Shown here one piece after another: positions 1 through 19,270 of a DNA stretch of 64,000 nucleotides. The number at the start of each line of letters is the position of its first letter. Within the stretch, counting starts at the first letter, position 1. This DNA comes from Oscillospiraceae bacterium (GTDB taxonomy: Bacteria > Bacillota > Clostridia > Oscillospirales > Oscillospiraceae). Under the pieces are notes generated by a model. It worked only from the letters and a program-made list of their open reading frames with translations. It made no database searches and was not told the origin of the DNA. Where the stretch lies: the NCBI GenBank assembly GCA_902779945.1, contig CACZDN010000017.1, forward strand, positions 1 through 64,000, written 5' to 3'. The translations under genes and the position numbers were made by a program.

Positions 1-145
1 CATCAAGGGTATCGACAAGCAGAAGGTCGGCCAGTTTGCAGCCGAAGTCCGTGGTAAGAGACCTCCCGAACCCTACAAGGGCAAGGGCATCAAGTACGAC
101 TACGAGACCATCCGCCGCAAAGAAGGCAAGACCGGCGCCAAGTAA
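1..145 (+). CDS. rplF: 50S ribosomal protein L6, C-terminal part (partial)
   Basis: The window opens inside this gene; the reading frame begins at base 2 and gives 47 residues before TAA at 143-145. The tail has the basic, KGKG-containing C-terminus typical of L6 ([19 protein letters not shown]). L6 binds 23S rRNA near the GTPase-associated region of the large subunit. It sits directly before rplR, as in the standard spc operon order. The start is outside the window. Confidence 0.93.
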
Positions 146-161
146 ACGGAGGTGTGCCTGA

Positions 162-521
162 ATGATTAAGAGACCCGATACCAGAGGACAGCGCATCAAG
201 CGCCACCAGAGAGTGCGCGGCAAGATCTCCGGTACCCCCGAGAGACCCAGGCTCAGCGTATTCCGCAGCGAAAACAACATCTACGCCCAGATCATCGACG
301 ACGTGGCCGGCAACACCCTCGTGTCCGCCTCCAGCGTCGAGAAGGGCTTCGAAGGCAACGGCGGCAACATCGAGGCCGCAAAGAAGGTCGGCGCGAAGGT
401 CGCCGAGCGCGCCCTGCAGAAGGGCATCGAAGAGGTCGTGTTCGACCGCGGCGGCTACATTTATCACGGCCGCGTCCAGGCACTGGCAGACGGCGCCCGC
501 GAGGGCGGCCTGAAATTCTGA
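162..521 (+). CDS. rplR: 50S ribosomal protein L18
   Basis: 119 residues, normal for bacterial L18, which binds 5S rRNA and anchors it in the central protuberance. The basic N-terminus, the core segment [19 protein letters not shown] and the terminus ending GGLKF are all diagnostic. A GGAGGTG ribosome binding site lies at about 147-153. It lies between rplF and rpsE with short gaps, as part of the co-transcribed spc operon. Confidence 0.97.
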
Positions 522-540
522 GGAAGGGGGATAACGAAAC

Positions 541-1071
541 ATGGCTTACAACAATGACAGAAGGGATCGCCGCAACAGCAAGGAAGAGGCTCCCTCCGAG
601 TTCATCGAGAAGGTAGTTTCCCTCAACCGCGTCAGCAAGACCGTCAAGGGCGGCCGCGTGGCGAAGTTCTCCGCGCTCTGCGTCGTCGGCGACGGCAAGG
701 GCCGCGTCGGCTACGGCATGGGCAAGGCCAACGAGGTCTCCGAGGCTATCCGCAAGGGCCTCGAGGACGCCAAGAAGAATATCGTCACCGTCACCCTCCA
801 GGGCACCACCATCCCGCATGAGGTGCTCGGCGCGTTCGGAGCCGGCCGCGTCCTGCTCAAGCCCGCCCCCGAAGGCACCGGCGTCATCGCCGGCGGCGCG
901 GTGCGTGCGGTCGTCGAGGCCGCCGGCATTTCCAACATCCGTACGAAGTGCCTGCGCACCAACAACCCCGCCAACGTCGTGGCCGCCACCATGGAGGGCC
1001 TCAAGTCTCTGCGCAACGCTGCCCAGGTCGCCGCTGTCAGGGGCAAGAATCCTGAAGAAATTCAGGGCTAA
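541..1071 (+). CDS. rpsE: 30S ribosomal protein S5
   Basis: 176 residues. It has the N-terminal double-stranded-RNA-binding S5 domain (about residues 18-85, with [16 protein letters not shown] and the glycine-rich VGYGMGKA) and the C-terminal S5 domain containing [17 protein letters not shown]5 acts in translational accuracy and helicase activity at the mRNA entry site. The length and order (rplR-rpsE-rpmD) are standard. The preceding ribosome binding site is GGAAGGGGG. Confidence 0.97.
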
Positions 1072-1083
1072 GGAGGGCGAAAG

Positions 1084-1263
1084 ATGGCTAATCTCAGAAT
1101 CAAGCTCGTCAAGAGCCTCAACGGCAGACACGACAAGCACATTGCGACTGCCTACTCCCTCGGCCTGCACAAGATCGGCAACGAGACTCTGCAGCCCGAC
1201 AATCCCCAGACCAGGGGCAAGATCGCCAAGATCGGCTATCTGGTCCAGGTAACCGAAGAATAA
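1084..1263 (+). CDS. rpmD: 50S ribosomal protein L30
   Basis: A short gene of 59 codons plus stop, beginning MANLRIKLVKSLNG and ending QVTEE. It matches the single-domain bacterial L30 in length and in the conserved IKLVKS and LGLHKIG segments. An AAGGAGG ribosome binding site at 1070-1076 sets the ATG at 1084. It occupies the canonical position between rpsE and rplO. Confidence 0.95.
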   Translation: MANLRIKLVKSLNGRHDKHIATAYSLGLHKIGNETLQPDNPQTRGKIAKIGYLVQVTEE

Positions 1264-1276
1264 GGAGGGCCAGAGA

Positions 1277-1717
1277 ATGTATATCAACGATCTTTCTCCC
1301 GCAGCCGGCTCCACCCATGTCGACAAGCGCAAGGGCAGAGGCCACGCCACCGGCAACGGCAAGACCGCAGGCCGCGGTCACAAGGGCCAGAAGGCCCGCA
1401 GCGGCGGCGGCACCCGCATCGGGTTTGAGGGCGGCCAGATGCCTCTGGCGCGCCGCATCCCCAAGAGAGGCTTCAACAACATCTTTGCAAAGCCCCTCGA
1501 TGCGCTGAATGTCTCCGTGCTCGACCGTTTTGAGGACGGTTCCGTCGTCGACGTCCAGGCCATTCTGGACGCGGGCATCATTTCGAAGTGCAAGTACGGC
1601 ATCAAGTTCCTCGGAGGCGGCGACGTTTCCAGGAAGCTGACCGTTAAAGCTTCTGCCTTCTCCGAAACCGCAAAACAGAAGATAGAAGCGGCCGGCGGAA
1701 AGGCAGAGGTGGTCTAA
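1277..1717 (+). CDS. rplO: 50S ribosomal protein L15
   Basis: 146 residues. The glycine/lysine-rich N-terminal extension (residues about 20-50, GRGHATGNGKTAGRGHKGQK) that threads into 23S rRNA is obvious, followed by the folded C-terminal domain (LDRFEDGSVVD, IKFLGGG). It is an early assembly protein of the large subunit. The stop codon directly abuts the GTG of secY, so translation of the two is probably coupled. Confidence 0.97.
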   Translation: MYINDLSPAAGSTHVDKRKGRGHATGNGKTAGRGHKGQKARSGGGTRIGFEGGQMPLARRIPKRGFNNIFAKPLDALNVSVLDRFEDGSVVDVQAILDAGIISKCKYGIKFLGGGDVSRKLTVKASAFSETAKQKIEAAGGKAEVV

Positions 1718-3019
1718 GTGCTTCAGACATTACGCAACGCATGGAAGATCGAGGAGCTCCGCAGGAAGATCCTCTTCACGCTCCTGATCCTGGCGCTGTA
1801 CCGTCTCGGCAACGCCATCCCCGTCCCCTATGTGAACGTCAGCGCCCTGCAGGCTTATTTCTCCCAGCTGCAGAACACGGTCCTGGGCCTGCTGAACGTC
1901 ATGTCCGGCGGCGCTTTCTCCAACGCGACCATCTTCGCGCTTTCCATCCAGCCCTACATCAACGCCAGCATCATCATCCAGCTGCTGTGCATCGCCATCC
2001 CGGCCCTTGAGCGCATGAGCAAGGACGAGGGCGAGGAGGGCCGCAAGAAGATCGCCTCCATCACCCGTTACTCCACCGTCGCGATCGGCCTGCTGCAGGG
2101 CTTCGGCTTCTACATGCTCATCAAGAACTACGGCATCCTGACTCCCGAGGCCAAAGGCAATGTCTGGGCCGCGATCGTCATCGTGCTGACCTTTACCTCC
2201 GGCTCCGCACTGATCATGTGGCTGGGCGAGCAGATCACCGAATTCGGCATCGGCAACGGCATCTCCATGATCCTGTTTGCCAGCATCATCTCCCGCTTCC
2301 CCACCATGATCTTCACCAGCATCACCAACATGGCCCGTCCGGCGGACGATCCGAACCATCTGAACTGGTGGGTCTTCCTGTTCATGCTCCTCGGCGCGCT
2401 GTGCATCATCGTGCTCATCGTCTTCGTCAACGACGCCGAGCGCCGCATCCCCGTCGTCTACGCCAAGCGCGTGGTCGGCCGCAAGATGTACGGCGGCCAG
2501 AGCACCCATCTGCCCATGAAGGTGAACATGTCTGGCGTTATGCCCATCATCTTCGCCCAGTCCATCGCCTCCGTTCCCGCGACCATCGCGGCCTTCACCG
2601 GCAAGACCAACGGCTGGGTCAGCACCTGGTTCGGCACCAACTCCATCCCCTATGCAATCGTCTATCTGCTGCTCATCATCTTCTTCGCCTACTTCTACTC
2701 CACCATCCAGTTCAACCCCGTGGAGGTTGCCAACAACCTAAAGAAGAACGGCGGCTATATCCCCGGCTTCCGTCCCGGCAAGCCGACCAGCGATTTTATC
2801 CAGAAGGTCCTGAACAAGATCACCCTCTTCGGCGCGATCTATCTGGGCATCATCGCTGTCGTTCCGATCCTGATCGCGCACTTCTCTACGCAGTCCGCTC
2901 TGACGGGTATCTCCCTCGGCGGCACCTCCATCATCATCGTTGTCGGTGTTGCGCTTGAGACGATCCGCGCGCTCGAGGCTCAGATGCTCATGCGCAACTA
3001 CAAGGGCTTTCTTGATTAA
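1718..3019 (+). CDS. secY: Preprotein translocase subunit SecY
   Basis: 433 residues with ten predicted transmembrane segments, the usual size. SecY forms the protein-conducting channel with SecE and SecG in the cytoplasmic membrane. The N-terminus (MLQTLRNAWKIEELRRKILF) is typical of Firmicutes, and the plug-region and lateral-gate helices are present. The start is GTG at 1718, immediately after the rplO TAA, with a purine-rich ribosome binding site (GGCAGAGG) inside rplO. It is followed by adk and map, the usual order. Confidence 0.97.
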   Translation: MLQTLRNAWKIEELRRKILFTLLILALYRLGNAIPVPYVNVSALQAYFSQLQNTVLGLLNVMSGGAFSNATIFALSIQPYINASIIIQLLCIAIPALERMSKDEGEEGRKKIASITRYSTVAIGLLQGFGFYMLIKNYGILTPEAKGNVWAAIVIVLTFTSGSALIMWLGEQITEFGIGNGISMILFASIISRFPTMIFTSITNMARPADDPNHLNWWVFLFMLLGALCIIVLIVFVNDAERRIPVVYAKRVVGRKMYGGQSTHLPMKVNMSGVMPIIFAQSIASVPATIAAFTGKTNGWVSTWFGTNSIPYAIVYLLLIIFFAYFYSTIQFNPVEVANNLKKNGGYIPGFRPGKPTSDFIQKVLNKITLFGAIYLGIIAVVPILIAHFSTQSALTGISLGGTSIIIVVGVALETIRALEAQMLMRNYKGFLD

Positions 3020-3037
3020 AGAAAGGAGCGCTTGAGC

Positions 3038-3670
3038 ATGAGACTGATCCTTCTGGGCGCCCCCGGCGCAGGCAAAGGAACACAGGCAGAGATCCTCTCG
3101 AGGCTTTTGAGCATCCCCACGATCTCCACGGGCAACATCCTCCGCGCCGCCATGAAGGCCGGCACCGAGGTGGGCCTCAAGGCCAAAGCCTACGTGGAGT
3201 CCGGGCAGCTCGTTCCGGACGAGGTCATCATCGGCATCATCCGGGAGCGCCTCGCGGAGCCCGACTGCGCCGCGGGTTATATTCTCGACGGCGTACCCCG
3301 CACGATCCCCCAGGCCCAGACCATGGAGGACATGGGCATCGAAATCGACTGCGCCCTGTCCATCGAGGTCGAGGACGAGGTCATCGTCCGCCGCATGTCC
3401 GGCCGCAGGACCTGCAAAGACTGCAGCGCCACCTTCCACGTGGAGAGCAATCCCCCGAAAACGGAGGGCAAATGCGACTTCTGCGGCAGCGAGCTGACGA
3501 TCCGCAAGGACGACGCGCCCGAGACCGTCAAGAACCGTCTGACCACCTATCACCGCGAGACCGAGCCTCTCAAGGCCTTCTATGCAGAGCGCGGCAAGCT
3601 GCGCGAGGTCCGGAACCAGCCGAGCATCGAGGCGACCACGGCAGCCATCCGGGACTGCCTGGGGATCTGA
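3038..3670 (+). CDS. adk: Adenylate kinase
   Basis: Catalyses ATP + AMP = 2 ADP in the cytosol. From ATG 3038 it has 210 residues, with the P-loop GAPGAGKGT at residues 7-15, the AMP-binding STGNILR and LDGVPRT motifs, and a long LID domain carrying a Cys4 zinc site (CKDC and CDFC). An in-frame TTG at 3032 is possible but would leave only about 3 nt to the AAAGGAG site at 3022-3028, so the ATG with about 9 nt spacing is preferred. Confidence 0.96.
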   Translation: MRLILLGAPGAGKGTQAEILSRLLSIPTISTGNILRAAMKAGTEVGLKAKAYVESGQLVPDEVIIGIIRERLAEPDCAAGYILDGVPRTIPQAQTMEDMGIEIDCALSIEVEDEVIVRRMSGRRTCKDCSATFHVESNPPKTEGKCDFCGSELTIRKDDAPETVKNRLTTYHRETEPLKAFYAERGKLREVRNQPSIEATTAAIRDCLGI

Positions 3671-3671
3671 A

Positions 3672-4442
3672 ATGTCCGACACGATCTATATCAAGTCGAA
3701 ATCAGAAATCGAGATCATGCGTCAGGCTGCGCGCATCGCGGCCGGCGCACGATCCATGGGCCGCCAGGCTGTTCGGGACGGCTTGACCACCCGACAGATC
3801 GACAAAGCGGTACATGAATTCATCGTCAAGTCCGGCGCGAAGCCGAGCTGCCTGGGTTACGCGGGCTTCCCCGCGGCGACCTGCGTCTCGGTAAACGACC
3901 AGGTCATCCACGGCATCCCCGGCAGGCGCGTGGTCCGAAACGGGGACATCGTCTCCATCGACCTCTGCGCGGGCTACAAGGGCTTCATCGGTGACTGTGC
4001 GGGGACCTATCCCTGCGGCGAGGTCAGCGAGGAAGCGCAGAAGCTCATCGCGGTGACGCGGGAGGCCTTCTTCGAGGGCATCCGCTTCGCGAAGGTCGGC
4101 TACCGCATCGCCGATATCGGCGGCGCGGTGCAGGATTATGTGGAGGGCCACGGCTTCTCCGTCGTGCGCGACTTCGTGGGCCACGGCATCGGCCGCGGTA
4201 TGCACGAGGCGCCAGAGGTGCCGAACTACCGCCCGGAACGCGGGCGGCACAATCCGCGCCTTGTCAAGGGCATGACCATCTGCATCGAGCCGATGGTCTG
4301 CGCGGGCGACTGGCACGTCGAGATCCTGGACGACGACTGGACCGTCGTCACCCGGGACGGCTCTCTCGCGGCACACTATGAAAACACCATTCTGATCACC
4401 GACGGTGAGCCGGAGATCCTAACAATGGCAGACGATATTTGA
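3672..4442 (+). CDS. map: Methionine aminopeptidase, type I
   Basis: 256 residues. It removes the initiator methionine from nascent proteins. The dimetal site is complete: D97, D108, H171, E206 and E237, with substrate-contacting H80 in [11 protein letters not shown]. There is no N-terminal zinc-finger extension, so this is the short type Ia form. The ATG lies one base after the adk stop, so the two are translationally coupled. The order adk-map-infA is typical of Gram-positive spc operons. Confidence 0.96.
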
Positions 4443-4464
4443 TGAGACTTGGGAGGAATCACCT

Positions 4465-4683
4465 TTGGCAAAAGACGATGTAATCGAACTTGAAGGCACG
4501 GTAGTCGAGTCTCTGCCCAACACCATGTTCAAGGTGGACATCGGCAAAGGCCACGTAATACTGGCGCACATTTCCGGCAAGCTCCGGATGAACTTTATCA
4601 GGATCCTTCCCGGCGATAAGGTCACGGTGCAGATGTCGCCCTACGACATTACCCGCGGCCGCATCGTGTGGAGAAGCAAGTAG
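4465..4683 (+). CDS. infA: Translation initiation factor IF-1
   Basis: 72 residues, the classical S1/OB-fold IF-1 that binds the 30S A site during initiation. The sequence from [19 protein letters not shown] to [12 protein letters not shown] is diagnostic. The start codon is TTG at 4465, supported by a GGGAGGA ribosome binding site 7 nt upstream; no ATG could give the conserved N-terminus. Between map and infA there is no KOW-domain protein gene, which some Firmicutes carry. Confidence 0.97.
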
Positions 4684-4697
4684 GAGGTATATCACAA

Positions 4698-4811
4698 ATG
4701 AAAGTCAGACCTTCCGTCAAGCCCATGTGCGAGAAGTGCAAGATCATCAAGCGCAAGGGCAAAGTCATGGTCATCTGCGAGAACCCCAAGCACAAGCAGC
4801 GCCAGGGCTGA
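4698..4811 (+). CDS. rpmJ: 50S ribosomal protein L36 (zinc-binding form)
   Basis: 37 codons, [19 protein letters not shown] to KHKQRQG. The four-ligand zinc ribbon (Cys11, Cys14, Cys27, His32) is intact, so this is the C+ form. A TAGGAGGT ribosome binding site sits at 4681-4688. It is the last gene before the repeat-containing gap that separates it from rpsM. Confidence 0.96.
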
Positions 4812-5096
4812 TCGCAGGATAGAGTGAAGAGTTGAGCGTGAAGAGTGAAGTGAAGGAATCGCTGCGCGATATCTTGATTCGTCCCCGAAGGGGACACCAT
4901 AACTCCACTCTCCACACTCCAAACTCCACACTGAACTGAGGCGTTTGCCTCACCCACATTCAGAGACACGGAAGTCTGTTGAGCAGACAATCCTGTCCTT
5001 ATACAACACTCCCGCATGGACACGGAGGCTCCCTCCGGCGGGAACAAGTCCCCGCGTCGCAGACATGCGGAAAAAAATCGAAAGGATGATCGTATT
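4812..5096. repeat. Repeat-bearing gap splitting rpmJ from rpsM
   Basis: 285 nt with no coding evidence. Bases about 4820-4935 contain degenerate inverted tracts: GTGAAGAGTGAAG-type units on the left, and units whose complement reads GTGGAGAGTGGAG on the right, flanking a CCCCGAAGGGG hairpin. Similar tracts border the gap at 21083-21330. The remaining 4936-5096 is unique sequence that could hold a leader or promoter for the alpha operon, but no convincing -35/-10 pair was found. In most relatives rpmJ and rpsM are nearly adjacent, so the gap looks like an insertion. Confidence 0.55.
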
Positions 5097-5465
5097 ATGG
5101 CACGTATAGCCGGCGTTGACCTGCCCAAGGACAAGAGAATCGAGATCGGTCTCACCTACGTCTACGGCATTGGCAGAACCAGCGCGAACAAGATCCTGGC
5201 CATGACCGGGATCAACCCCGACACCAGAGTCAAGGACCTCACCGACGAGGAAGAGGCCAAGCTCCGCGAGTGCATCGACCACAACTTCATCGTTGAGGGC
5301 GACCTGCGCCGCCAGACCGCGCTTGACATCAAGCGTCTCACCGAGATCGGCTGCTACCGCGGCCTGCGCCACCGCCGCGGCCTGCCCGTGCGCGGCCAGC
5401 GCTCCAAGACCAATGCCCGTACCCGCAAGGGTCCGAAACGCACCATCGCGAATAAGAAGAAGTAA
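5097..5465 (+). CDS. rpsM: 30S ribosomal protein S13
   Basis: 122 residues from [21 protein letters not shown]; the helix-two-turn-helix and the basic tail ([14 protein letters not shown] to KKK) are typical. S13 contacts the P-site tRNA and 23S rRNA at the head of the 30S subunit. An in-frame ATG exists at 5016, but the conserved N-terminus and the GAAAGGATG site at 5080-5088 place the start at 5097. First gene of the alpha operon. Confidence 0.96.
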
Positions 5466-5479
5466 GGAGGGAGCCGATC

Positions 5480-5881
5480 ATGGCAGCACAGAACGCAAAA
5501 AAGAAAGTCAGAACCCGCAGAAGAGAGCGTAAGAACATTGAAAAGGGCCAGGTTCATATCAGCTCTTCCTTCAACAACACCATGGTCACCGTGAGCGATA
5601 CCCAGGGCAACGCCATTTCCTGGGCCTCCGCCGGCGGCCTGGGCTTCCGCGGAAGCAAGAAGTCCACTCCCTTTGCCGCACAGACCGCAGCCGAGACGGC
5701 CGCCAAGGCCGCCATGGAGCACGGCCTGAAGACCGTCGAGGTCTTCGTCAAGGGCCCCGGCTCGGGCCGTGAGGCCGCCATCCGCGCCCTCCAGACCGCC
5801 GGTCTCGAGGTTACGATGATCAAGGATGTCACTCCCATTCCTCACAATGGCTGCCGTCCTCCGAAACGTCGTCGTGTATAA
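5480..5881 (+). CDS. rpsK: 30S ribosomal protein S11
   Basis: 133 residues. The conserved core is complete: [50 protein letters not shown] and the C-terminal [14 protein letters not shown]11 forms part of the 30S platform next to the mRNA exit. The AAGGAGGG site is at 5464-5471. It lies between rpsM and rpsD as expected. Confidence 0.97.
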
Positions 5882-5901
5882 GAAAGGGAGGATAGACTGT
5901 T

Positions 5902-6440
5902 ATGGCTAAGAACAGAGAGCCCATTGCACCAGAAATTCCAACAGCCAGGTCAGACGGAAAAAGTCCGAGTATGCCCTGCAGCTGCAGGAGAAGCAGAAGG
6001 TCAAATTCGTGTACGGCGTGCTGGAGAAGCAGTTCCGCGGCTACTACGAGAAGGCCGAGCGTATGCCCGGCAAGACCGGCGAGAACCTCCTCTTCCAGCT
6101 TGAGTGCCGCCTTGACAACGTGATCTACCGCCTGGGCTATGCCGCTACCCGCCGCGAGGCGCGCCAGATGGTCAACCACGGCCACTTCACCGTCAACGGC
6201 CACAAGGTCAACATCCCCAGCTACCAGGTGAAGCCCGGCATGGTCATCGCCATCAGAGAGAGCAGCCGCAGCATCGAGCGCTTCAAGGTGAATCTCGAGG
6301 CAAACGCCTATCATGTCATTCCGAAGTGGCTTGAGTTCGACGCAAACAATATGGTCGGCAAGGTCGTTGCCGTCCCCGCAAGAGAAGATATTGATCTGCC
6401 CGTTGAAGAGCGTCTCATCGTCGAGTTGTACTCCAAGTAA
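5902..6440 (+). pseudogene. rpsD: 30S ribosomal protein S4, N-terminal deletion with frameshift
   Basis: The ATG at 5902 (ribosome binding site AAGGGAGG) encodes the normal S4 beginning MAKNREPIA, but the rest of the protein ([19 protein letters not shown]... through the S4 RNA-binding domain to VELYSK) lies in a different frame from about base 5931 to 6440. Aligned by eye to family S4 (about 195-200 residues), roughly 19-20 residues after MAKNREPIA are missing. The net loss must be 1 modulo 3 bases (for example 55, 58 or 61). No ATG, GTG or TTG precedes the conserved part in the downstream frame; the first ATG is at 6009 and would remove the whole N-terminal region. S4 is normally essential, so this is either an assembly error, a real lesion compensated by a second rpsD, or an unusual truncated S4. 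Confidence 0.8.
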
Positions 6441-6522
6441 ACCAGATACCCTCAAATTGGTAAGCTGCATCACCGAAGACACCAACTATGGCGCAAACTT
6501 ATAAGGAGGGTTATATTATCAT

Positions 6523-7473
6523 ATGATCGAAATTAAGAAGCCGCGTATCGAGTGCATTGAGACGCCCACCGACAGCTCGTATGGCAAATATATCATCGAG
6601 CCTCTGGAGCGCGGCTATGGTACTACGCTTGGTAACTCTCTTCGCAGGGTACTTCTCTCTTCCCTCCCCGGCATCGCGTGCACCAGCATCAAGATCGCCG
6701 GCGTTCAGCATGAGTTTTCCACCATCCCCGGCGTCAAGGAGGACGTGACGGAGATCGTGCTCAACGTCAAGAGCATCATCGCCCGCCTCCACAGCACCGG
6801 CCCCAAGACCGTGTACATTGAGGCCAGCGGCGAGGGCCTTGTCACCGCGGGCGACATCAAGCCCGACGCCGAGGTGGAAATCCTCAACCCCGAGCAGCCC
6901 ATCGCAACGCTGGGCCCCGACGGGGCGCTGAGCATGGAGCTCGTTCTGGACCACGGCAGAGGCTACGTCTCCGCCGACAAGAACAAAAACCCCCAGATGC
7001 CCATCGGCACCATCCCCGTCGACTCGATTTACACGCCCGTTCTCAAGGTCAACTATACGGTGGAGAACACCCGTGTCGGCAACCAGACCGACTTCGACAA
7101 GCTGACCATCGAGGTCTGGACGGACAAGACCATGACCGCAAGGGACGCCGTCTCTCTGGGCGCGAAGATCCTCTGCGACCACTTCACGCTTTTCACCAAC
7201 CTCTCCGACACCATCGGCACCAATTCCACGGTGGTCGAAAAGGTCGAGAAGGAGCCCGACACCATGCTCAAGATGACCATCGAAGAGCTGGATCTGTCCG
7301 TGAGAAGCTTCAACTGCCTCAAGCGTGCGAACATCAACACGGTTGAGGATCTGGTAAGCAAGACCCAGGACGAAATGATCAAGGTCCGCAACCTTGGCCG
7401 CAAGTCCCTCGAGGAGGTCGAGCACAAGCTCACCATGATGGGCCTGTCTCTTGCCAGCAATGACAACCAGTAA
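6523..7473 (+). CDS. rpoA: DNA-directed RNA polymerase subunit alpha
   Basis: 316 residues. The N-terminal dimerisation/insert domains (about 1-230, with [22 protein letters not shown]) assemble RNA polymerase. The C-terminal domain (about 245-305, with [19 protein letters not shown] and [11 protein letters not shown]) contacts UP elements and activators. AAGGAGGG lies at 6502-6509. An 82-nt gap separates it from rpsD. Confidence 0.97.
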
Positions 7474-7491
7474 TTAGGAGGAAACGACATT

Positions 7492-7833
7492 ATGCCTGGT
7501 ACAAGAAAACTCGGCAGGACCACGCCCCAGCGCATGGCGATGCTCCGTCAGCAGGTGACCGACTTCCTGGACAAGGGCCGCCTGGAGACCACCGTCACCC
7601 GCTGCAAGGAAATCGCGCCTCTGGCCGAGAAGATGATCACCCTCGGCAAGGCGAAGGATCTGGCCGCCTACCGTCAGGCGCTGGCCTTCATCACCCGCGA
7701 GGACGTAGCCAAGAAGGTCTTTGACGAGATCGCCCCCAAGTACGCCGACCGCAACGGCGGCTACACCCGCATCACCCGCATCGGCAACCGCCGCGGCGAC
7801 GCCGCCGAGGTAGCCGTCATCGAGCTCGTCTGA
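7492..7833 (+). CDS. rplQ: 50S ribosomal protein L17
   Basis: 113 residues, [21 protein letters not shown] to AEVAVIELV, the standard bacterial L17 length and the last gene of the alpha operon. L17 lies at the bottom of the 50S subunit near the peptide tunnel exit. TAGGAGGAAA precedes the ATG. A strong terminator follows 16 nt after the stop. Confidence 0.97.
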
Positions 7834-7849
7834 TCTCTGCTTCAATCAA

Positions 7850-7889
7850 AAAACCACCCGAAACGATTCTGTTTCGGGTGGTTTTTTTG
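7850..7889 (+). terminator. Rho-independent terminator of the alpha operon
   Basis: A perfect 13-bp stem (AACCACCCGAAAC with GTTTCGGGTGGTT) around a 6-nt loop, followed by seven T residues. An A-run on the left side could make it partly bidirectional. It ends the rplF-rplQ transcription unit. Confidence 0.93.
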
Positions 7890-7992
7890 ACCGCAAATGA
7901 CTTGCTTGAATCGGCCCCGCGTGAGCGGAAGCGAAGAATCTTTTGCTGCATTTGTGAAGAAAGAGTCTTCGTAACTTTCTTCCTCCGTATAA

Positions 7993-8213
7993 CAGCGACT
8001 GATACTCTTCTCCAATAGAGCGCTATGAATCTTTCCGGCCGGATTTGCGCCATGCTTCGTTATCGCCCTTGGCAATACACAAAGTATTCCCTGCGGGCGC
8101 GTTATCGCCCTTGGCAATACACAAAGTATTCCCTGCGGGCGCTGCCTTGCCTGACACAAATCCGCCTCGGAAATCTTTCACAGCACCTTATTGGAGAAGA
8201 GTATGAATCGCTG
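7993..8213. repeat. 221-bp inverted-repeat element with internal 42-bp tandem duplication
   Basis: The arms at 7993-8017 and 8189-8213 are inverted copies over 25 bp with two mismatches; the inner 16 bases (ATACTCTTCTCCAATA) match perfectly. Imperfect inverted similarity continues inward (CCGGATTTG near 8040, CAAATCCG near 8158). The centre holds a 42-bp unit repeated exactly twice at 8059-8100 and 8101-8142. No open frame looks coding. It resembles a MITE or large palindromic intergenic element. It lies downstream of both rplQ and mrdA, so it interrupts no operon. Confidence 0.7.
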
Positions 8214-8230
8214 CGAACAGGGAACAGAGA

Positions 8231-10345
8231 TTACTTCAAAAGCGTCATTTCGGGCTCGGAGGTGTCGCTGTAGCCGCGGATCGTGATGTAGGCGTCCATG
8301 ATCTGGCGGGCGATGAACTGGACGTCGGCGCCGGCGCCGCCGCGCTCCACCACCACAAAGATGGCGACCTCGGGGTCCTTGTAGGGGCCGTAGCACATGA
8401 AGATGCCGTCGTTCTGGATGCCCTCGCCCTTCTGGGCGGTCCCGGTCTTGCCGGCGCAGCGCCAGGCGCAGGGGACCCAGATGTTGGCGTTGGTCTCGTT
8501 GGTGTAGTCGTTGAGCACCAGCCACATCCCCTCATGCACGGCGTCCCAGTTGTACTGGGGCGTCTCCACCTTGGACATGACGCGGCTCTCGCGCTCGTAG
8601 AGCTTTTCGGAGTAGTCAAAATTGCGGATGGCCTTGATGATGGACGCGGAGTAACGGGTGCCGCCGTTTGCGACGGTGGCGCAGTACTCGGCCATCTGGA
8701 TGGGAGTGAACACGGAGTCGGACTGGCCGATGGCGGCCTGCAGCGTGTCGCCGATGCGCCACTCGGAGCCGGCGTAGTCCTGGTGGTTGGCGCGGTTGGA
8801 CATATTGCCCTTGGCCTCCACCAGCTCGATCCCCGAGAACTGCCCGAGCCCGAAGGCCGCCGCAAATTCACCCATGTCGTCGACGCCGAGGTCGTTGCCG
8901 ACGGTGTAGAAGAAGTAATTGCACGAGTCGCGGATGGCGGTGGTGACGTTCTCCTCCGGGTGGGTCAGGTGCTCCTTCTTGTTGACGTTCCAGATCCAGC
9001 ATTCCGGCGCGTAGCCCTCAGCCGCGTAGCGGGTGTACACGCCCTGGCACTTGATCTTCTTCTCGGTGTTGATGATGCCCTTGGTCAGCCCCGCGATGGC
9101 GGTGCAGGGCTTGAAGGTGGAGCCGGGGGCGTAGGTGCCCAGCAGCGCGCGGTTGAAGAGCGGAGCGTTCTCCGCCGCCAGCAGCTCCTGATAGTCCTCA
9201 ATGATGCGGGACACGTCGTAGGTCGGCCAGCTTGCCAGGGCGAGAGGGGAGCCGTCCTTCACGTTCACCACCACGGCGGAGGCCCCGGTGATGTTGTCCT
9301 TGAGATCGACGTTGTAGTCGCCGCGGGCCGTACCCTCGGCGCGCTTCTGGGCGATGTTCTTTTTCAGGATCTCCACGCCGTTGCCGAGGATACGTTCGGT
9401 CTGCTCCTGGAGCACGCTGTCGATGGTGAGGTAGATATGGTTGCCGGGCACGGGCTCCTTGGTGTAGACCGTGGCGAGGATGGTGCCGGCGGCGTTGCGG
9501 GTCTCCTCCACCTCGCCGTCCTGGCCGTGGAGGTAGTTTTCAAAGGCATACTCGATGCCGTCCTTGCCCACCATGGCGTCGGTAGAGTAGTCGAGCAGGG
9601 AGTACTTCTCATACTCCTCCTGCGTCATGAGACCCACATAGCCCAGGATGTGGGCCGCGTAGTCCGTGGAGTACTGACGGATGTAGGCGCGTTTGACCTC
9701 GATGCCGACCAGCTTGTTCTCCATGATGGAGGAGATGAGGTTCATGCTCGCGTCCTGGACGAAGACGTAGTCCGCGGTGTTGATGGCGTAGCGCACGTTG
9801 ATCGAATAGCGCACGCCCGCGATCAGACGCATTTCGGAGGCGGAATACTTGTTGTCGATGTTGTAGCGCGTGCGCATGTAGCTCATGAGCTCCACGGCCG
9901 TGCAGTTCGGGTCCAGCCCCTGGCGCTTATAGTACGCCTCCAGCATCGTGCGCTGGATGGCGGTCATGTTCTCGTCGTACTCAAAGGGCGGCTCGAAGGT
10001 GACGGGCAGGTCGTCGGTGTACTCGTCGCCGTAGCTGCGCACCATGCTGACAAGCTGGAGGATGACGGAGTTCGGGTCCTCATTGGCAAAGAGCTTGTCG
10101 GTGTCGATGCGGAGGTTGTAGCACTCGGCGTTCGAGACCAGCACGCGCCCGTAGCGGTCGAGGATGTTGCCCCGCGCCGCGGTGACCGTGCGCGTGGTGT
10201 GGATGAGCTCGTTTGCGCGGTTGTAGTACTCCTCGCCCTTGACGATCTGGAGCTGGTAGAGAAAGTACATGTACACGGCCAGCAGCACCGCCGCGATAAT
10301 GGCCAGCGCCGCCAGCCTTCCGCGGCTGATGAGTTTTTGATTCAT
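8231..10345 (-). CDS. mrdA: Penicillin-binding protein 2 (elongation transpeptidase)
   Basis: 704 residues with one N-terminal transmembrane anchor (about 12-32), a PBP dimerisation domain, and a C-terminal transpeptidase domain. The catalytic S409 lies in STFK, SCN forms the SxN motif, and K633 starts KTGTAQ. The protein cross-links peptidoglycan in the rod (elongasome) complex. It is the last gene of the minus-strand maf-mreC-mreD-mrdA cluster, which supports assignment to PBP2 rather than a sporulation or divisome PBP. The 78-nt gap to mreD contains a small hairpin. Confidence 0.93.
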   Translation of the reverse strand: MNQKLISRGRLAALAIIAAVLLAVYMYFLYQLQIVKGEEYYNRANELIHTTRTVTAARGNILDRYGRVLVSNAECYNLRIDTDKLFANEDPNSVILQLVSMVRSYGDEYTDDLPVTFEPPFEYDENMTAIQRTMLEAYYKRQGLDPNCTAVELMSYMRTRYNIDNKYSASEMRLIAGVRYSINVRYAINTADYVFVQDASMNLISSIMENKLVGIEVKRAYIRQYSTDYAAHILGYVGLMTQEEYEKYSLLDYSTDAMVGKDGIEYAFENYLHGQDGEVEETRNAAGTILATVYTKEPVPGNHIYLTIDSVLQEQTERILGNGVEILKKNIAQKRAEGTARGDYNVDLKDNITGASAVVVNVKDGSPLALASWPTYDVSRIIEDYQELLAAENAPLFNRALLGTYAPGSTFKPCTAIAGLTKGIINTEKKIKCQGVYTRYAAEGYAPECWIWNVNKKEHLTHPEENVTTAIRDSCNYFFYTVGNDLGVDDMGEFAAAFGLGQFSGIELVEAKGNMSNRANHQDYAGSEWRIGDTLQAAIGQSDSVFTPIQMAEYCATVANGGTRYSASIIKAIRNFDYSEKLYERESRVMSKVETPQYNWDAVHEGMWLVLNDYTNETNANIWVPCAWRCAGKTGTAQKGEGIQNDGIFMCYGPYKDPEVAIFVVVERGGAGADVQFIARQIMDAYITIRGYSDTSEPEMTLLK

Positions 10346-10423
10346 AGAAATCCTTTCCTTGAGACGCAGGTTAAAAAACGCAGGGGCCGTCGAGGGCGTA
10401 GGCCCCTGCGGAGAACAATGGTT

Positions 10424-10921
10424 TCACGCCCGTGCCCACTTCTCCGGCAGCGGATAGGCCAGCGCGGCAACAGGGAGGGACAGGAGCGTCTGCAGGCCGG
10501 CGACAACGGGCATGTCCACACTCCACGCGTCGCCCGCGAGGGTCTTGAGCATCTGCAGAATCGACGTGATCAAAAGCGCCAAAAACGCCACGCCCATGAA
10601 GGCAAAGAAGCGGCGGTTGATGAAAAACTGCGACAGAAACGCGGCCATCAGGCTCAGCGCCGGCAGGAGCAGCAGAAAAAACACGCGGTTTTCCACAAAG
10701 CTCATGTCCGCAAAATAGCCCATCAGCAGGCAGAAGAGCGGCCCCCAGGTTGCCCCCTCGAACATGCCGACCGCGGCCGCCACTGCCGGCAGCACCAGCG
10801 GGCACACGCCGTAGATCCGGATGTGGCTCAGCACCATGTTCTGCGCCATCAGCGTCAGGAACATGAACAGCAGATACCGGACCAGCTTGCGCAGGTCGAT
10901 TTTTTCAAGCAGCTCCCTCAT
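10424..10921 (-). CDS. mreD: Rod shape-determining protein MreD
   Basis: 165 residues, almost entirely hydrophobic, with five to six predicted transmembrane helices, the size and profile of MreD. It links MreC, RodA and PBP2 in the elongasome. It begins one base after the mreC stop, indicating coupled translation. The sequence itself is poorly conserved in the family, so the call leans on topology and position. Confidence 0.87.
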   Translation of the reverse strand: MRELLEKIDLRKLVRYLLFMFLTLMAQNMVLSHIRIYGVCPLVLPAVAAAVGMFEGATWGPLFCLLMGYFADMSFVENRVFFLLLLPALSLMAAFLSQFFINRRFFAFMGVAFLALLITSILQMLKTLAGDAWSVDMPVVAGLQTLLSLPVAALAYPLPEKWARA

Positions 10922-10922
10922 G

Positions 10923-11765
10923 TCACTCCACCACCGTAAAGCTCTTGATGACGAAAACCTGCACCAGAGAGTCGAGCTTGGCCTGCGGCTCCACGATGCC
11001 GTATTCGATTTGGCCGCCGGCCTCGGTCTGGACGGCGGTGAGGGTGCCGATCATCAGCCCCGCCGGGAACGCGCCGCCGGAGCCGGAGGTCAGCACGTCG
11101 TCGCCCACGAAGATCTGGGCCCCGTCGGCAAGATAGGTGAGCTTCGCGGTTTTCTCGCGCATAAAGGAGTATTCGCCCACCACCATGCCGGAGTTGCCGG
11201 TCGCGCCGACGAAGGCGCCGACGGACATGTCCACGTCGATGACCGTGGAGACCGTGGCCCAGTTGGTGCCCAGCTCCGTAATCTGCCCGACCACGGCGCC
11301 GTACTCGGTGATCACGGGGTCGCCCAGCTCGATGCCGCTGGAGGAGCCCTTGGAGATCGTAAAGGAGCTGGACCAGTTGGAGCTGGACCAGAGCACCACC
11401 TTGCAGGACTCCATTACATAGTCCGTGTGCTTCTCGCGCAGCTCCAGAAGCTGGCGCAGGCGGGAGTTTTCCTCGCTGGCGGCGATGCCGTCGCGGGCGG
11501 ACTTCTGCGCGTCCGCGAGCTGGGAGCGCAGGGATTCGTTTTCGGCCATGAGCGAATCGTACTCGTACAGATAGCCGTACATGCTGTCAAACCAGTTGAC
11601 GGCGGAGCTCAGCACCTTCTGAATGGGAGCCTTGACGATGCCGGCCACATTCTGGATGACGCCGATGTTCCCCTTGCGGGCGGCCGCGCCGAGACTAATG
11701 ATGAGCGCCGCGGACAGCACGATGATGCCGACGCGGATGCCGTTTTTCCTCAGATATTCCTTCAA
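10923..11765 (-). CDS. mreC: Rod shape-determining protein MreC
   Basis: 280 residues: a short cytosolic N-terminus, one transmembrane helix (about 10-28), a coiled coil (about 65-105, LMAENESLRSQLADAQK) and the beta-rich extracytoplasmic MreC domain (from WSSSFTISKGSSSGI onward). It scaffolds PBP2 and the cytoskeleton. The start overlaps the maf stop by 4 nt. mreB, usually next to mreC, is absent here. Confidence 0.93.
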   Translation of the reverse strand: MKEYLRKNGIRVGIIVLSAALIISLGAAARKGNIGVIQNVAGIVKAPIQKVLSSAVNWFDSMYGYLYEYDSLMAENESLRSQLADAQKSARDGIAASEENSRLRQLLELREKHTDYVMESCKVVLWSSSNWSSSFTISKGSSSGIELGDPVITEYGAVVGQITELGTNWATVSTVIDVDMSVGAFVGATGNSGMVVGEYSFMREKTAKLTYLADGAQIFVGDDVLTSGSGGAFPAGLMIGTLTAVQTEAGGQIEYGIVEPQAKLDSLVQVFVIKSFTVVE

Positions 11766-12334
11766 AGCAGCTCAACCCCCAGCTCGCGCAGCATGATTCC
11801 GAGCCTGCACAGCGGCAGGCCCATGACATTAAAGAAGTCGCCCTCAATCCCCTCGACAAAGAGGGAGGCCCTGCCCTGGATGCCGTAGGCCCCGGCCTTG
11901 TCCATGGGCTCGCCGGTGGCGATGTAGGCGGCGATCTCCCGGTCAGAGAGCGCACGGAAGCGGACCGCGCTGCGCTCGTAATCCAGAAGCGTGACGCCGC
12001 CCCGGATCACGGCGACGCCGGTATAGACCTCGTGCTGCCGCCCGGAGAGGGTGCGCAGCATTTCGGCGGCGTGGGTCTCGGACCGCGGCTTGCCGAAGAC
12101 CGCCCCGTCCGCCCACACGATGGTGTCCGCCGCGAGCACGACGTCGTCCGGCGAAGCGATCGCCGAGACCTCCTTCGCCTTGTGGGCGGCGAGAGCCTTG
12201 ACCAGCTCCGAGGGCGGCAGCCCGGGCGCGGCCTTCTCCTCCCCGACGGCGGGCACGATGCGAAGCTCCCGCACGCCGAGCATTTCCAACAGTTCCTTCC
12301 TCCGCGGAGAAGCGGAGGCGAGTATGATCGACAT
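11762..12334 (-). CDS. maf: Maf-family nucleoside triphosphate pyrophosphatase
   Basis: 190 residues. The N-terminal ILASASPRRKELLEML (SxRR substrate-binding motif), the central ADTIVWADG and the C-terminal GEPMDKAGAYGIQG are diagnostic. Family members hydrolyse dTTP/UTP or modified nucleotides and affect septation in Bacillus. First gene of the operon with mreC-mreD-mrdA, overlapping mreC by 4 nt. Confidence 0.93.
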   Translation of the reverse strand: MSIILASASPRRKELLEMLGVRELRIVPAVGEEKAAPGLPPSELVKALAAHKAKEVSAIASPDDVVLAADTIVWADGAVFGKPRSETHAAEMLRTLSGRQHEVYTGVAVIRGGVTLLDYERSAVRFRALSDREIAAYIATGEPMDKAGAYGIQGRASLFVEGIEGDFFNVMGLPLCRLGIMLRELGVELL

Positions 12335-12365
12335 TTTAATAATCTCCAGGTTTACACCGATTTAT

Positions 12366-12566
12366 GGGGGAGCTGTCAGTGCCGTTCGCGGCTCTGACTG
12401 AGAGGGCTCCAGCCTCTGACGAAGGATATGGCCCCCTTGCCTGAAGGGGGCTGGCACCAGTGTTCACACTGGTGACTGGGGGATACCGTTTTCTGCACAG
12501 CGTCGATAAGACTGTATCCCCCGCCTCAGTTTGCGAACTGGGGCACCTCTCCCAAAGGGAGAGGCA
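12366..12566. repeat. GC-rich hairpin repeat cluster (copy 1)
   Basis: A series of nested hairpins: GGGGAGCTGTCAG... to CTGACTGAGAGGG, CCCCCTTGCCTGAAGGGGG, CACCAGTGTTCACACTGGTG and CCTCTCCCAAAGGGAGAGG. The same modules recur at 14699-14824 and 21124-21265. No coding evidence. It separates maf from the U32 gene and may serve as a bidirectional transcription barrier. Confidence 0.7.
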
Positions 12567-12573
12567 GGAAGGT

Positions 12574-14658
12574 TCACTCCACGCCTCTGTAGTACAATCC
12601 GCGCGTCAGCACGTTCGGCTGATAGTCGGACTGGCCGAGGTAGACCTTTGCCACCTCGAGACACTCGCGGGGCGTCTCGGTGGTGAAGAGCATACGCATC
12701 CCCCAGAGGCCCGCGCCGTAGAGGTCCTCCGCCTTGTCGGCGAGGTAGAGCTTGTGGGCGTTGTAGATCACGTTCCGGCAGCCGAATTCCTTGACCACCG
12801 GGAACACCGCGCCCATGCGGTCGGCCATCTGCGCCGGGGTCTGGCAGGTGCAGCGGCCCGAGGAATGGCGGATCACGCACTGGTCCGACACCATGAGCGG
12901 GAGCCTGCCGTAGACGATCATCTCGGTGTCGAGCGTCTTCGACAGGTCACGTATCTGCGCAATGCGCAGCTCGAACGAGGCCGTGGCGGACAGAAAGCCC
13001 GCCTGCCGCACCATCTCCATCGAGAGGGAGTTGAACACGTTCAGCCCGAAGTCGCCGCGCACGCTGAGCCCCACGGATCGGGCCAGCATCGCGTGGCCGA
13101 GATTGCCGACCAGCGCCTCGTTGATGCCGAAGTCGAAGAGGCGCTCGAGCGTCTCGCGCACGATGTGCTCCTCGTCGTCGGTGATGACGCGGGGCAGCAC
13201 CACCACCGGCACGGTGCCGTGCTCCTCAAAGGGCTCCAGCAGATCAAAGTACTCGCTCATCACAGTCATCGGGACGTAGATATAGCGGGGCTTCAGGGCC
13301 GCAAGCTCCGGTGTGAGCTGCTCGGGCGATAAGACCTGAAAGATCATGGCGGGGTCTGTCCCCGGCGGCGTGCCGGCGGGCTTTGCCGGGATCGTGCCCA
13401 CGCGGCGCTGCGGCGGTCTGCCGCGCTGCTCGCTGAGCTCCGCGCAGAGATTGCGCCGCAGCTCGTTGATCGCGGCGGCGGGGGCAAAGAGCCCCGGGTC
13501 CGTTTTGGCCTGGTTGTCGACCACGCTGTAGGGCGTGCCGCCGGTTTTGAACATCTGTTCGGTGATATAGGTGGGCGAGAGGCCGATGCCCCGCGCTTTC
13601 TCAGGCGCGCGCCCCTCGGCGACGGCCTTGTGCCCCTCGTCATCAAAGGCGATGGCGCGCAGGGGCTGGCCCTTCTCGACCAGGGTGTAGAAGTGTACGG
13701 GCACGCGGCGCAGCTCCCCCTCGGAATAGCCCTTGCGGGCCTGGGCGAAGAGCTGGTCGACCTCGCGGTCGGTATCCGCGCGCACGCCGAACATGTCCTC
13801 CTGGTCGCCGTTGAAGTAGCCCTGGGTGAAGCCCTGGCGGGAAAAGGCGCGCTCGAGCTCCTCCAGCTCCTCGGACGAGGGCTGGCGGTGCTCCTTGAGG
13901 GCGTTTGCGTAAATGCGGGTGACGATGGCGGTATATTCGGGCCGCTTCATGCGCCCCTCGATCTTGATGCAGGCGACGCCCGCCTCCTCGATCTCCTGCA
14001 GTCTGTCCACGAGACAGTTGTCCTTGAGGGAGAGGGGGTGGTCGTCCATGCGCCCGCCGAGCGAGTACTGGAGGCGGCATGGCTGGGCGCACATGCCGCG
14101 GTTGCCGCTGCGCTGGCCGATCAGGGCCGACATGTAGCACTGGCCTGAGTGGCAGAAGCACAGGGCCCCGTGTACGAAGATCTCGGTCTCGATGGGGGCG
14201 TTCTGCGTGATATAGCGTATCTGGTCGAGACTCAGCTCCCGGGCGAGCACCGCGCGGGTCATGCCGAGCTCTGCCGCGGCCTCCACGCCCGCCAGATTGT
14301 GGATCGACATCTGGGTGCTGGCGTGCAGCGGGATGTCCGGCAGATAGCTCCGGATCGCGGCGGCAAGCCCCAGGTCCTGAATGATGATGCCGTCGGCCCC
14401 CGCGTCGGAGGCCAGGCGTGCGGTCCGGAGGGCCTCCTCCACCTCGCGGTCGCCCACCAGCGTGTTGAGGGTGACGTAGGTCCTGCAGCCCCGGATGCGG
14501 CAGTAGCGCACCGCGCGCTCAAACTCCTCGTCCGTGAAGTTCTTCGCGCCGCGCCGGGCGTTGAAGTTGCCGAGCCCCATATAGACGGCGTCCGCGCCGT
14601 TCTGCACCGCGGCGATCACAGCCTCGGGCGACCCGGCGGGTGAGAGCAGTTCTGTCAT
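12574..14658 (-). CDS. U32 family peptidase-like protein (RlhA-type, with DUF3656)
   Basis: 694 residues. The N-terminal U32 TIM-barrel segment begins with ELLSPAGSPEAVIAAVQNGADAVY and carries a Cys cluster (C167, C169, C174, C190, C194 in CFCHSGQC and GMCAQPCR) that in this family holds an iron-sulfur centre. The central part resembles DUF3656. Length and architecture match E. coli RlhA (YdcP), which makes 5-hydroxycytidine at 23S rRNA C2501, so an RNA hydroxylase role is more likely than proteolysis. That functional transfer is inference. The gene is monocistronic, with hairpin repeats on both sides. Confidence 0.85.
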   Translation of the reverse strand: MTELLSPAGSPEAVIAAVQNGADAVYMGLGNFNARRGAKNFTDEEFERAVRYCRIRGCRTYVTLNTLVGDREVEEALRTARLASDAGADGIIIQDLGLAAAIRSYLPDIPLHASTQMSIHNLAGVEAAAELGMTRAVLARELSLDQIRYITQNAPIETEIFVHGALCFCHSGQCYMSALIGQRSGNRGMCAQPCRLQYSLGGRMDDHPLSLKDNCLVDRLQEIEEAGVACIKIEGRMKRPEYTAIVTRIYANALKEHRQPSSEELEELERAFSRQGFTQGYFNGDQEDMFGVRADTDREVDQLFAQARKGYSEGELRRVPVHFYTLVEKGQPLRAIAFDDEGHKAVAEGRAPEKARGIGLSPTYITEQMFKTGGTPYSVVDNQAKTDPGLFAPAAAINELRRNLCAELSEQRGRPPQRRVGTIPAKPAGTPPGTDPAMIFQVLSPEQLTPELAALKPRYIYVPMTVMSEYFDLLEPFEEHGTVPVVVLPRVITDDEEHIVRETLERLFDFGINEALVGNLGHAMLARSVGLSVRGDFGLNVFNSLSMEMVRQAGFLSATASFELRIAQIRDLSKTLDTEMIVYGRLPLMVSDQCVIRHSSGRCTCQTPAQMADRMGAVFPVVKEFGCRNVIYNAHKLYLADKAEDLYGAGLWGMRMLFTTETPRECLEVAKVYLGQSDYQPNVLTRGLYYRGVE

Positions 14659-14698
14659 GTCTGTGTGTTCCTTCTGTGTCTGCGTTAAAAATCAAATT

Positions 14699-14824
14699 CC
14701 CGGCTCCCCCTGCAGGGGAGCAGCCAGCGCCGTTCGCGGCGCTGACTGAGAGGGCGTTGCGCCGACGGCCGGCCCTCTCCGCCCCGGTGTGCGCACCGGG
14801 GCGCTTCTCCCAGAGGGAGAGGCA
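14699..14824. repeat. GC-rich hairpin repeat cluster (copy 2)
   Basis: It contains CCCCTGCAGGGG, the palindrome AGCGCCGTTCGCGGCGCT followed by GACTGAGAGGG, and CCCCGGTGTGCGCACCGGGG, ending in a CTCTCCC...AGAGGCAAG arm. It shares the TTCGCGGC...CTGACTGAGAGGG module with copy 1. It lies between the divergent U32 and DnaD-like genes. Confidence 0.7.
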
Positions 14825-14871
14825 AGAGCTGAGCATAAAAATACAGGTTAATTATAGCACAAGGTCAAGGC

Positions 14872-14900
14872 TTGCGGCAAGGGGATAATCGTGGTATAAT
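14872..14900 (+). promoter_or_regulatory. Sigma-A type promoter of the DnaD/DnaI-like operon
   Basis: TTGCGG (14872-14877) and a perfect TATAAT (14895-14900) are separated by 17 nt. The predicted transcript start is about 50 nt before the GTG at 14953. Confidence 0.75.
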
Positions 14901-14952
14901 ACGGTTCCGGCGTGAACAATACATGAATTTTGCGCCCGGCGGAGGTGAGAGC

Positions 14953-15828
14953 GTGGGAAGCGGGAACATCAGCATTCAGTCCGAAGAGCTTGAGCGGCTG
15001 GTCGCCGCGCATGACGGGGACGTGGCCCTGCTGTGGCTGTACAGGCTCCTGCGCGGCTCCGACGCGCCGGAGGACGCGGCCCGCGCGCTCTGCCGCACAA
15101 GGGCGGAGATCGAGGCCGCGCGCGAAAAGCTCCGCCGTATGGAGCTCTCGCCGCCAGCGAGCGCGGCAAAGCTCCCGCCGCCGGACGAGACGCCGGAGTA
15201 CACGGCGAAGGACCTGGCCGTGCGCAGCCGGGAGGACCCGCGCTTCGCCGCCCTGGTCACCGAGGCTCAGCGCGCCCTGGGCCGCCTCCTCTCGAGCAGC
15301 GACCTCAAAAAGCTCTTCGGCCTGTACGACTATCTGGCCCTGCCGCCGGAGGTCATCATGATGCTGCTCAACTACTGCGTCAGCACCGCGCCCGCCGGCA
15401 GTCCCCCCTCCATGCGCCTGATCGAGAAGGAGGGCTATGTCTGGGCCAACCGCGAGATCCTCACGCTCGAGCAGGCGGACGAGTACATTGCCAAAAGCCG
15501 CAGGCGGCGCGACCAGCTCGCCCGCGCGGCGCAGCTCCTGGGCATTTCGGGCCGCGCCCTGAGTCCGACGGAGAGCAAGTACCTCGCCGCCTGGCTCGAC
15601 ATGGGCTTCGGGGAGGAGCTGCTGGAGCTGGCCTACGACCGCACCCTCACCAACACGGGCGGTCTCAAATGGAGTTATATGAACGGCATCCTCAAGAGCT
15701 GGCACGAGAAGGGCCTGCACACCCCCGAGGACGTGCGCGACAGGGACACCCGCCGCCCCAGAGGGCAGGATAAGGACCGTACCCCGCAAAACCTCGGCGA
15801 GCTTGTCGCGGGGCTGGACAAGATATAG
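14953..15828 (+). CDS. DnaD-domain primosomal protein
   Basis: 291 residues from GTG 14953. That start is chosen because a perfect anti-SD match (GGAGGTGA, 14941-14948) lies 4 nt upstream; an ATG at 14923 has no good site. The N-terminal part resembles the DnaD winged-helix domain. The segments FGLYDYLALPPEVIMMLLNYC and YLAAWLDMGFGEELLELAYDRT... GGLKWSYMNGILKSWHEKG show two copies of the DnaB/DnaD C-terminal fold (about residues 110-170 and 195-260). It probably helps load the replicative helicase together with the adjacent ATPase. Confidence 0.87.
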   Translation: MGSGNISIQSEELERLVAAHDGDVALLWLYRLLRGSDAPEDAARALCRTRAEIEAAREKLRRMELSPPASAAKLPPPDETPEYTAKDLAVRSREDPRFAALVTEAQRALGRLLSSSDLKKLFGLYDYLALPPEVIMMLLNYCVSTAPAGSPPSMRLIEKEGYVWANREILTLEQADEYIAKSRRRRDQLARAAQLLGISGRALSPTESKYLAAWLDMGFGEELLELAYDRTLTNTGGLKWSYMNGILKSWHEKGLHTPEDVRDRDTRRPRGQDKDRTPQNLGELVAGLDKI

Positions 15829-15837
15829 GAGAGCGCC

Positions 15838-16830
15838 ATGAGCTATGACGGGAAGCTGCTGGCCCGCGCCAGGGGCGAGCTTGAAAACATACGCACGCAA
15901 AACCGCGCGGAGATGCAGCGCCGCTATGCGGAGGTCACGGCCCGCGTGCCGGAGATCCGCCGCATCGACGAAAAGCTGCGCGCCCATATGGCCAGGCTCG
16001 TGCGCCTGACGATCGCGAAGGGGCCCGACCTGAAGGAGCGCCTCGACGAGATCCGGAACGAAAACCTGGACCTCCAGATGAAAAGGGCGGAGCTGCTGAC
16101 CGCGGCGGGCTTTAAGTCCGACTATCTGGACGAGATCATCAGCTGTCCCCTCTGCCGCGACACCGGCATTTACAAAAGCGGGGTGTGCAAATGTCTCGAC
16201 CGCCTTTACAACCGGGAGCTGACAAAGGAGCTCGGCGCGCTGATGCGGCGCGGAGACGAGAGCTTTGAAAAATTCGACCTCACGCTCTACCCGGCGCAGG
16301 TGGACCCCGCCTCGGGCCTCGTCCCGCGCGAGGTCATGCGCAAGGTGTCCGACGCCTGCCGCCGCTATGCCGATAATTTTTCCGCGGCCTCGCCTAACCT
16401 GCTGTTCCAGGGCGGCACGGGCCTCGGCAAGACCTGGCTGTCCGCCTGCATCGCCCGCGTCGTCGCGGAGCGGGGCTTCTCGGTCTGCTACGACACCGCC
16501 GCCTCCGCGCTCGAAAACTATGAGCGGGCCAAGTTTTCCCGTGACCTGCCGGAGGGGGAGGAAGCAGCCCTGCGCATAAAACGCATGGAGAGCTGCGGCC
16601 TCATGATCCTCGACGATCTGGGCACCGAGATGACCACCCCCATGGCCCAGAGCGCGCTGTACACCCTGGTCAACAACCGCCTCGTCAACGGGAGAAAGAC
16701 CATCATCAGCACCAACCTCACAAACGACGAGCTTACAAAGCGCTACACCCCACAGATCGCCTCCCGCATCCTGGGCGAATTCCAGTGCCTGCCCTTCGTC
16801 GGGGAGGATATCCGGAGAATGAAACGATAA
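15838..16830 (+). CDS. DnaI/DnaC-like helicase loader ATPase
   Basis: 330 residues. A helical N-terminal region is followed by a zinc-binding cluster (C103, C106, C117, C119: CPLC and CKC), then an AAA+ domain with Walker A GGTGLGKT (192-199), Walker B LMILDDLG, and sensor region TIISTNLT. Family members load the replicative helicase at origins or restart sites. It begins 9 nt after the DnaD-like gene and ends in a terminator, so the two form a two-gene operon. DnaI is the closest named relative; exact orthology is not certain. Confidence 0.9.
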   Translation: MSYDGKLLARARGELENIRTQNRAEMQRRYAEVTARVPEIRRIDEKLRAHMARLVRLTIAKGPDLKERLDEIRNENLDLQMKRAELLTAAGFKSDYLDEIISCPLCRDTGIYKSGVCKCLDRLYNRELTKELGALMRRGDESFEKFDLTLYPAQVDPASGLVPREVMRKVSDACRRYADNFSAASPNLLFQGGTGLGKTWLSACIARVVAERGFSVCYDTAASALENYERAKFSRDLPEGEEAALRIKRMESCGLMILDDLGTEMTTPMAQSALYTLVNNRLVNGRKTIISTNLTNDELTKRYTPQIASRILGEFQCLPFVGEDIRRMKR

Positions 16831-16833
16831 AAA

Positions 16834-16867
16834 AACTCCTGCGGCTAAGCCGCAGGAGTTCGTTTTT
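16834..16867 (+). terminator. Bidirectional terminator between convergent genes
   Basis: A perfect 12-bp stem (AACTCCTGCGGC with GCCGCAGGAGTT), 3-nt loop, five T residues on the right and an A-run on the left. It sits between the convergent helicase loader and Ig-like repeat protein genes, so it can stop transcription from both sides. Confidence 0.9.
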
Positions 16868-19149: not shown

Positions 19150-19270
19150 GGCGTGTCCTTTCCGAGCGCCGAAGCCGGCGCTCTCCGCTAAACTCGGTTT
19201 TTTAAAATCATGGCACAAAAAGCGCCGTTTGTCAACAGGGGCGGGCAGGCAGTTTTTTCTGGAAGCGCTG

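Follow-up and report, generated by a model that had tools for sequence, protein, structure and literature searches.

The rpsD gene of an Oscillospiraceae bacterium is the only broken member of an otherwise complete rpsM-rpsK-rpsD-rpoA-rplQ operon, and the locus raises the question of whether the cell lives with a damaged ribosomal protein S4 or the damage arose in assembly. The window, that is, the whole stretch of 64,000 nt analyzed here, covers the opening 64 kb of the 116,370-nt contig C17, and the genome comprises 2.87 Mb in 39 contigs and is 85.8% complete. It is probably a rumen metagenome bin, since its closest named relatives are rumen metagenome bins (with Ruminococcaceae or Oscillospiraceae in the titles).

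The break is confirmed in the assembled sequence. The normal 5′ end of rpsD (5902–5927, plus strand, codons 1 to 9 in part) is identical to that of relatives and starts with ATG at 5902, opening MAKNREPIA; the frame from this ATG yields an ORF of just 73 aa (5902–6123). The remainder of the gene (5928–6440, plus strand) continues in another frame, which is closed upstream by TAA at 5907–5909, ends with a stop at 6438–6440, and contains no further stops or frameshifts. In alignment with the nearest relative (G108, RUG13855; locus L032), 61 nt, or 20 codons plus 1 nt, are missing at the junction 5927/5928, with 1 nt of homology, while outside this gap the 100-nt bins 5900–5999 and 6000–6099 are 100% identical to it. 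The match to PF00163 begins at position 27 of 95 and has one TAA within its span, so that no single open frame covers the whole S4. In the S4 frame there are no ATG, GTG or TTG codons from the TAA up to 6009, only CTG at 5976 and 5982; the sole listed in-frame ORF (6009–6440, plus strand, 143 aa) starts with GTG, a putative internal start. Hence the description given by the sequence-only reading, with nine normal codons followed by conserved S4 in another frame, about 19–20 residues lost and no alternative start ahead of the conserved block, holds in all parts, and the alignment with close relatives that it had suggested delimits the missing segment. It was also right that the operon neighbors are undamaged: rpsM, rpsK (5480–5881, plus strand; seen both in the ORF list and in the locus survey), rpoA (6523–7473, plus strand) and rplQ are all intact in the window. 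Thus, the gene resembles an ordinary rpsD (uS4, PF00163) of the alpha operon in position, neighbors, start and all protein past the junction, and differs from it in the 61 nt gone near the start and the broken frame.

Three causes had been offered for the break: an assembly deletion, a second rpsD elsewhere with this one decaying, and a tolerated truncation. They are partly supported overall, the first being favored by our data and the second unsupported. Second rpsD copies occur in some clostridia; the genome studied here belongs to the same wider bacterial group but differs in that the proposed search of its remainder found no second copy, the single S4 match in this 85.8% complete bin being the window gene itself. 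Among 60 relatives, 51 have exactly one S4 match each, and the nine with none are all bins of 55–86% completeness. In the genus, the S4 query matches 91 of 102 genomes, and many weak second matches are, by length and identity, other S4-domain proteins. Nor does the gene show decay. Its remaining 168 codons carry 16 synonymous and three nonsynonymous differences from L032, similar to pairs of intact relatives, and this part of S4 is, judging from the codon comparison, under purifying selection. Neither the relaxed selection or additional lesions of a pseudogene nor, in the assembled 85.8%, a working copy elsewhere was found, though a very recent loss would look alike.

Such a loss, a real and very recent deletion in the strain or in a part of the population, in which the missing 14% of the genome would carry another rpsD that supplies S4 or in which the assembly captured a rare allele, seems unlikely. 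The incompleteness of the bin leaves room for it, and two genus bins (G076 and G113) do hold a second real rpsD, partial or more distant; on the other side stand the single S4 match in all 51 relatives that have any, the absence of decay in the remainder of the gene, and the restriction of the junction to this genome among the genus genomes searched. When a 20-nt junction pattern was searched in 102 genus genomes, allowing for at most two mismatches, it matched two of them: the window itself (exactly) and contig C82 of G034 (with two mismatches). As rpsD of G034 is full-length and located on contig C28, the latter match is an unrelated site, and none of the remaining 101 genomes of the genus has the exact junction.

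A real deletion fixed in the species is on the sequence evidence very unlikely; if true, the species would depend on a single S4 gene whose product is without most of the N-terminal region or arises by slippage, and the ribosome would be assembled without the S4 N-terminus. The tolerated truncation of the sequence-only reading is possible, with no positive evidence found for it. In its explicit form, a shortened S4 would be made from GTG at 6009, with approximately 56 N-terminal residues fewer. The S4 delta 41 fragment still binds 16S rRNA. It exists as a solved structure (1c05), and the GTG opens the 143-aa frame with AAGG located eight nt upstream. However, the first residue of the predicted product aligns with residue 19 of the delta-41 chain and would thus be 18 residues short of it at the N-terminus, the same DNA encodes KQKVKF in intact relatives, so that AAGG needs no other explanation, and none of the relatives is naturally devoid of this region; we regard this variant as highly improbable. 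Rescue by –1 ribosomal slippage on a run of five A at 5959–5963 is scarcely credible: such a shift takes the ATG frame into the S4 frame (assessed by eye), but the run encodes RKKS in intact relatives, and an independent rpsD lesion in the sister bin G110 (approximately 17 nt, measured by eye) shifts the frame in the opposite direction, so no common rescue fits both. A programmed frameshift common to relatives was rejected as well, the frame being open here in close relatives except G110 (locus L074), where the lesion is of different length.

Two further candidates were considered for the missing stretch itself. Its transposition or unplaced retention in the own genome was rejected, the search having yielded only 11 weak matches (best E 0.108). 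There is likewise no sign of a two-species chimera: both sides of the junction are nearest to G108 (left side, 96.0% over 971 nt; right side, 95.2% over 855 nt), and therefore both probably come from one genome.

The position of the junction points to the assembly. Identical matches of at least 40 nt between positions 1–8000 of the window and eight relatives (G105, G106 and G094 being covered partially) include a tract of 184 nt (5744–5927, plus strand), shared with G105, G094 and G027 (its final 181 nt also with G095) and ending at the junction, and a tract of 189 nt (5927–6115, plus strand), shared with G108 and beginning at the junction. Moreover, all five longest matches (181–189 nt) start or stop there. 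Together the tracts occupy 372 of 8000 nt (5744–6115), and a randomly placed junction would land in them in approximately 5% of cases. In the passages available from papers on related rumen bins, assigned to the bins by bin names, reads are of 150 nt or of 100/150 nt, assemblies are IDBA-UD single-sample assemblies or MEGAHIT co-assemblies, and the MEGAHIT k reaches 87 (PMC6785717, PMC7820578, PMC5830445). Given these passages, reads of 100–150 nt and a MEGAHIT k of at most 87 are unable to span either tract, and both flanks are shared between species over more than a read length; that the pipeline behind the RUG bins also produced the window genome we infer from its relatives.

The bin is also defective in further conserved genes besides rpsD. 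For rpoC no match was obtained in the own genome, while all 14 control genomes matched. The rpoB gene is open as far as it is present and is truncated where contig C1 ends (345,715 nt; the match ends at 345,713), rplF is cut by the start of contig C17, and contig C10 ends approximately 1.8 kb past the rplB match.

Comparable lesions in indispensable genes were found in related assemblies, in a survey covering the window and 86 loci from genomes of the genus. Broken are rpoA in three sister bins (G108, G106 and G094), rpsK in G107 and G113, rpsD in G110, and rpsM at locus L163 (same as L075), the latter in-frame. To our knowledge, no bacterium lives without rpoA, rpsK, rpsM or rpsD. In rpoA of G108 (RUG13855; locus L153, contig C34, 6410–6806) 68 nt are missing and an exact 67-nt tandem duplication (67/67 identical) is present, the outcome expected if overlapping contigs were laid end to end unmerged. 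The other lesions comprise 149 and 44 nt in rpoA of G106, 55 nt in rpoA of G094, and 29 nt in G107; that in rpsD of G110 begins nearly where the window junction does. No N letters are present in the six lesion loci checked (L163 was outside this check).

Among the 80 named loci, lesions occur in seven of 35 with RUG/mag titles and in none of 45 others (Fisher p 0.002), a post hoc contrast confounded with relatedness, as the nearest relatives are mostly RUG bins. Before curation, which dropped two flagged loci with intact rpsK and one with runs of N, the numbers were 8/35 and 2/45 (p 0.018). Flagged but not counted as lesions were 22 loci with another S4 N-terminus and rplQ of L209, which has a different end. 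As a control, split rpsM, rpsK, rpsD or rpoA were seen in none of 27 loci (19 from other families of the order, eight from the genus), though these loci are best S4 matches biased to intact rpsD, and the test is coarse, having passed the broken L074.

The S4 N-terminus is of two kinds in the genus: in 22 of 86 loci, the match to S4 of the window type begins only at residue 34. Four of these (L082, L087, L097, and L103) show a cysteine-rich start, presumably of the zinc-binding type; the others open with MAKN or MARN without that pattern.

Contig starts are also frequent at this gene. In 87 rpsD rows from 85 genomes (G076 and G113 being represented twice), seven contigs start inside rpsD and six within 600 nt upstream, compared to 27 starts at 2400–9600 nt upstream, or approximately 2.3 per 600 nt; on the downstream side, only one contig end falls within 600 nt. 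These starts in or near rpsD (13 of 87 rows, at most 600 nt to either side of the gene start) support, as a post hoc observation, assembly fragility of the region. At one contig start (locus L146, G035:C169, 1–60) rpoA-like sequence passes directly into rpsD, as seen by eye.

A frameshift scan elsewhere in the window, using loci L240–L256 chosen from matches to window positions 1–20000, compared 845 stop-to-stop frames of relatives and gave 29 flagged pairs; the G108 pairs alone were traced, to the broken rpoA, and the remaining pairs are taken for antisense or over-long frames, so the scan yields no count of lesions in the window.

Several other features of the window were observed. A dispersed intergenic repeat of approximately 108 nt lies at 8098–8207 (also at 8002–8055), with at least 30 copies matched in the own genome, itself counted (among the best 40 of 134 candidates scored), and many matches in G095. 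Another, of approximately 135 nt, lies at 14694–14830, with pieces at 12367–12407 and 12521–12569, and, itself counted, matches at least 20 places in the own genome (among the best 40 of 51 candidates scored); G109 and G027 likewise have many matches. Short stretches at 4819–4935 and 12426–12547 match several places in G094, G109 and G027 and are probably further repeat families. A tRNA-Ile called by ARAGORN at 13086–13168, opposite a minus-strand ORF of 694 aa (12574–14658), may be spurious.

The defective bin, the tracts flanking the junction, the contig starts at rpsD, and the lesions in sister bins agree in favoring a local assembly error, and we consider it very likely that the break is of this origin and that S4 in the living cell is ordinary and undamaged. 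The assembly deletion named by the sequence-only reading is accordingly well supported by the shared tracts, the poor bin and the sister-bin lesions, if short of proof. A short-read assembly of a community with several close species would have fragmented in the conserved rpsK-rpsD stretch, where the species are identical over more than one read length, and two pieces of one genome would then have been joined directly, with the loss of 61 nt. We infer both this joining step and the intact rpsD in the cell from what the sequences show, namely the 61-nt gap, the tracts shared with relatives, other conserved genes of the bin being in poor condition, and the similar lesions of sister bins. Against a misjoin, a de Bruijn graph alone would not drop 61 nt at a junction with a single nucleotide of homology, and the joining step is assumed; the G110 lesion at nearly the same place might also mean a true deletion hot spot; and the contig is otherwise long (116 kb), with sound operon neighbors. 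The locus resembles misjoins and collapsed or duplicated overlaps known from short-read metagenomes, in that conserved essential genes of several related bins carry small deletions and, in one case, an exact tandem duplication, and in that contigs end within conserved genes.

For the biology of the organism, the break is probably of little weight. Where gut bacteria are abundant and closely related, their bins can make essential genes appear broken or absent, as exemplified by the broken rpsD and missing rpoC here and the broken rpoA in three sister bins, and claims of pseudogenes or gene loss from bins of that kind need support from reads.
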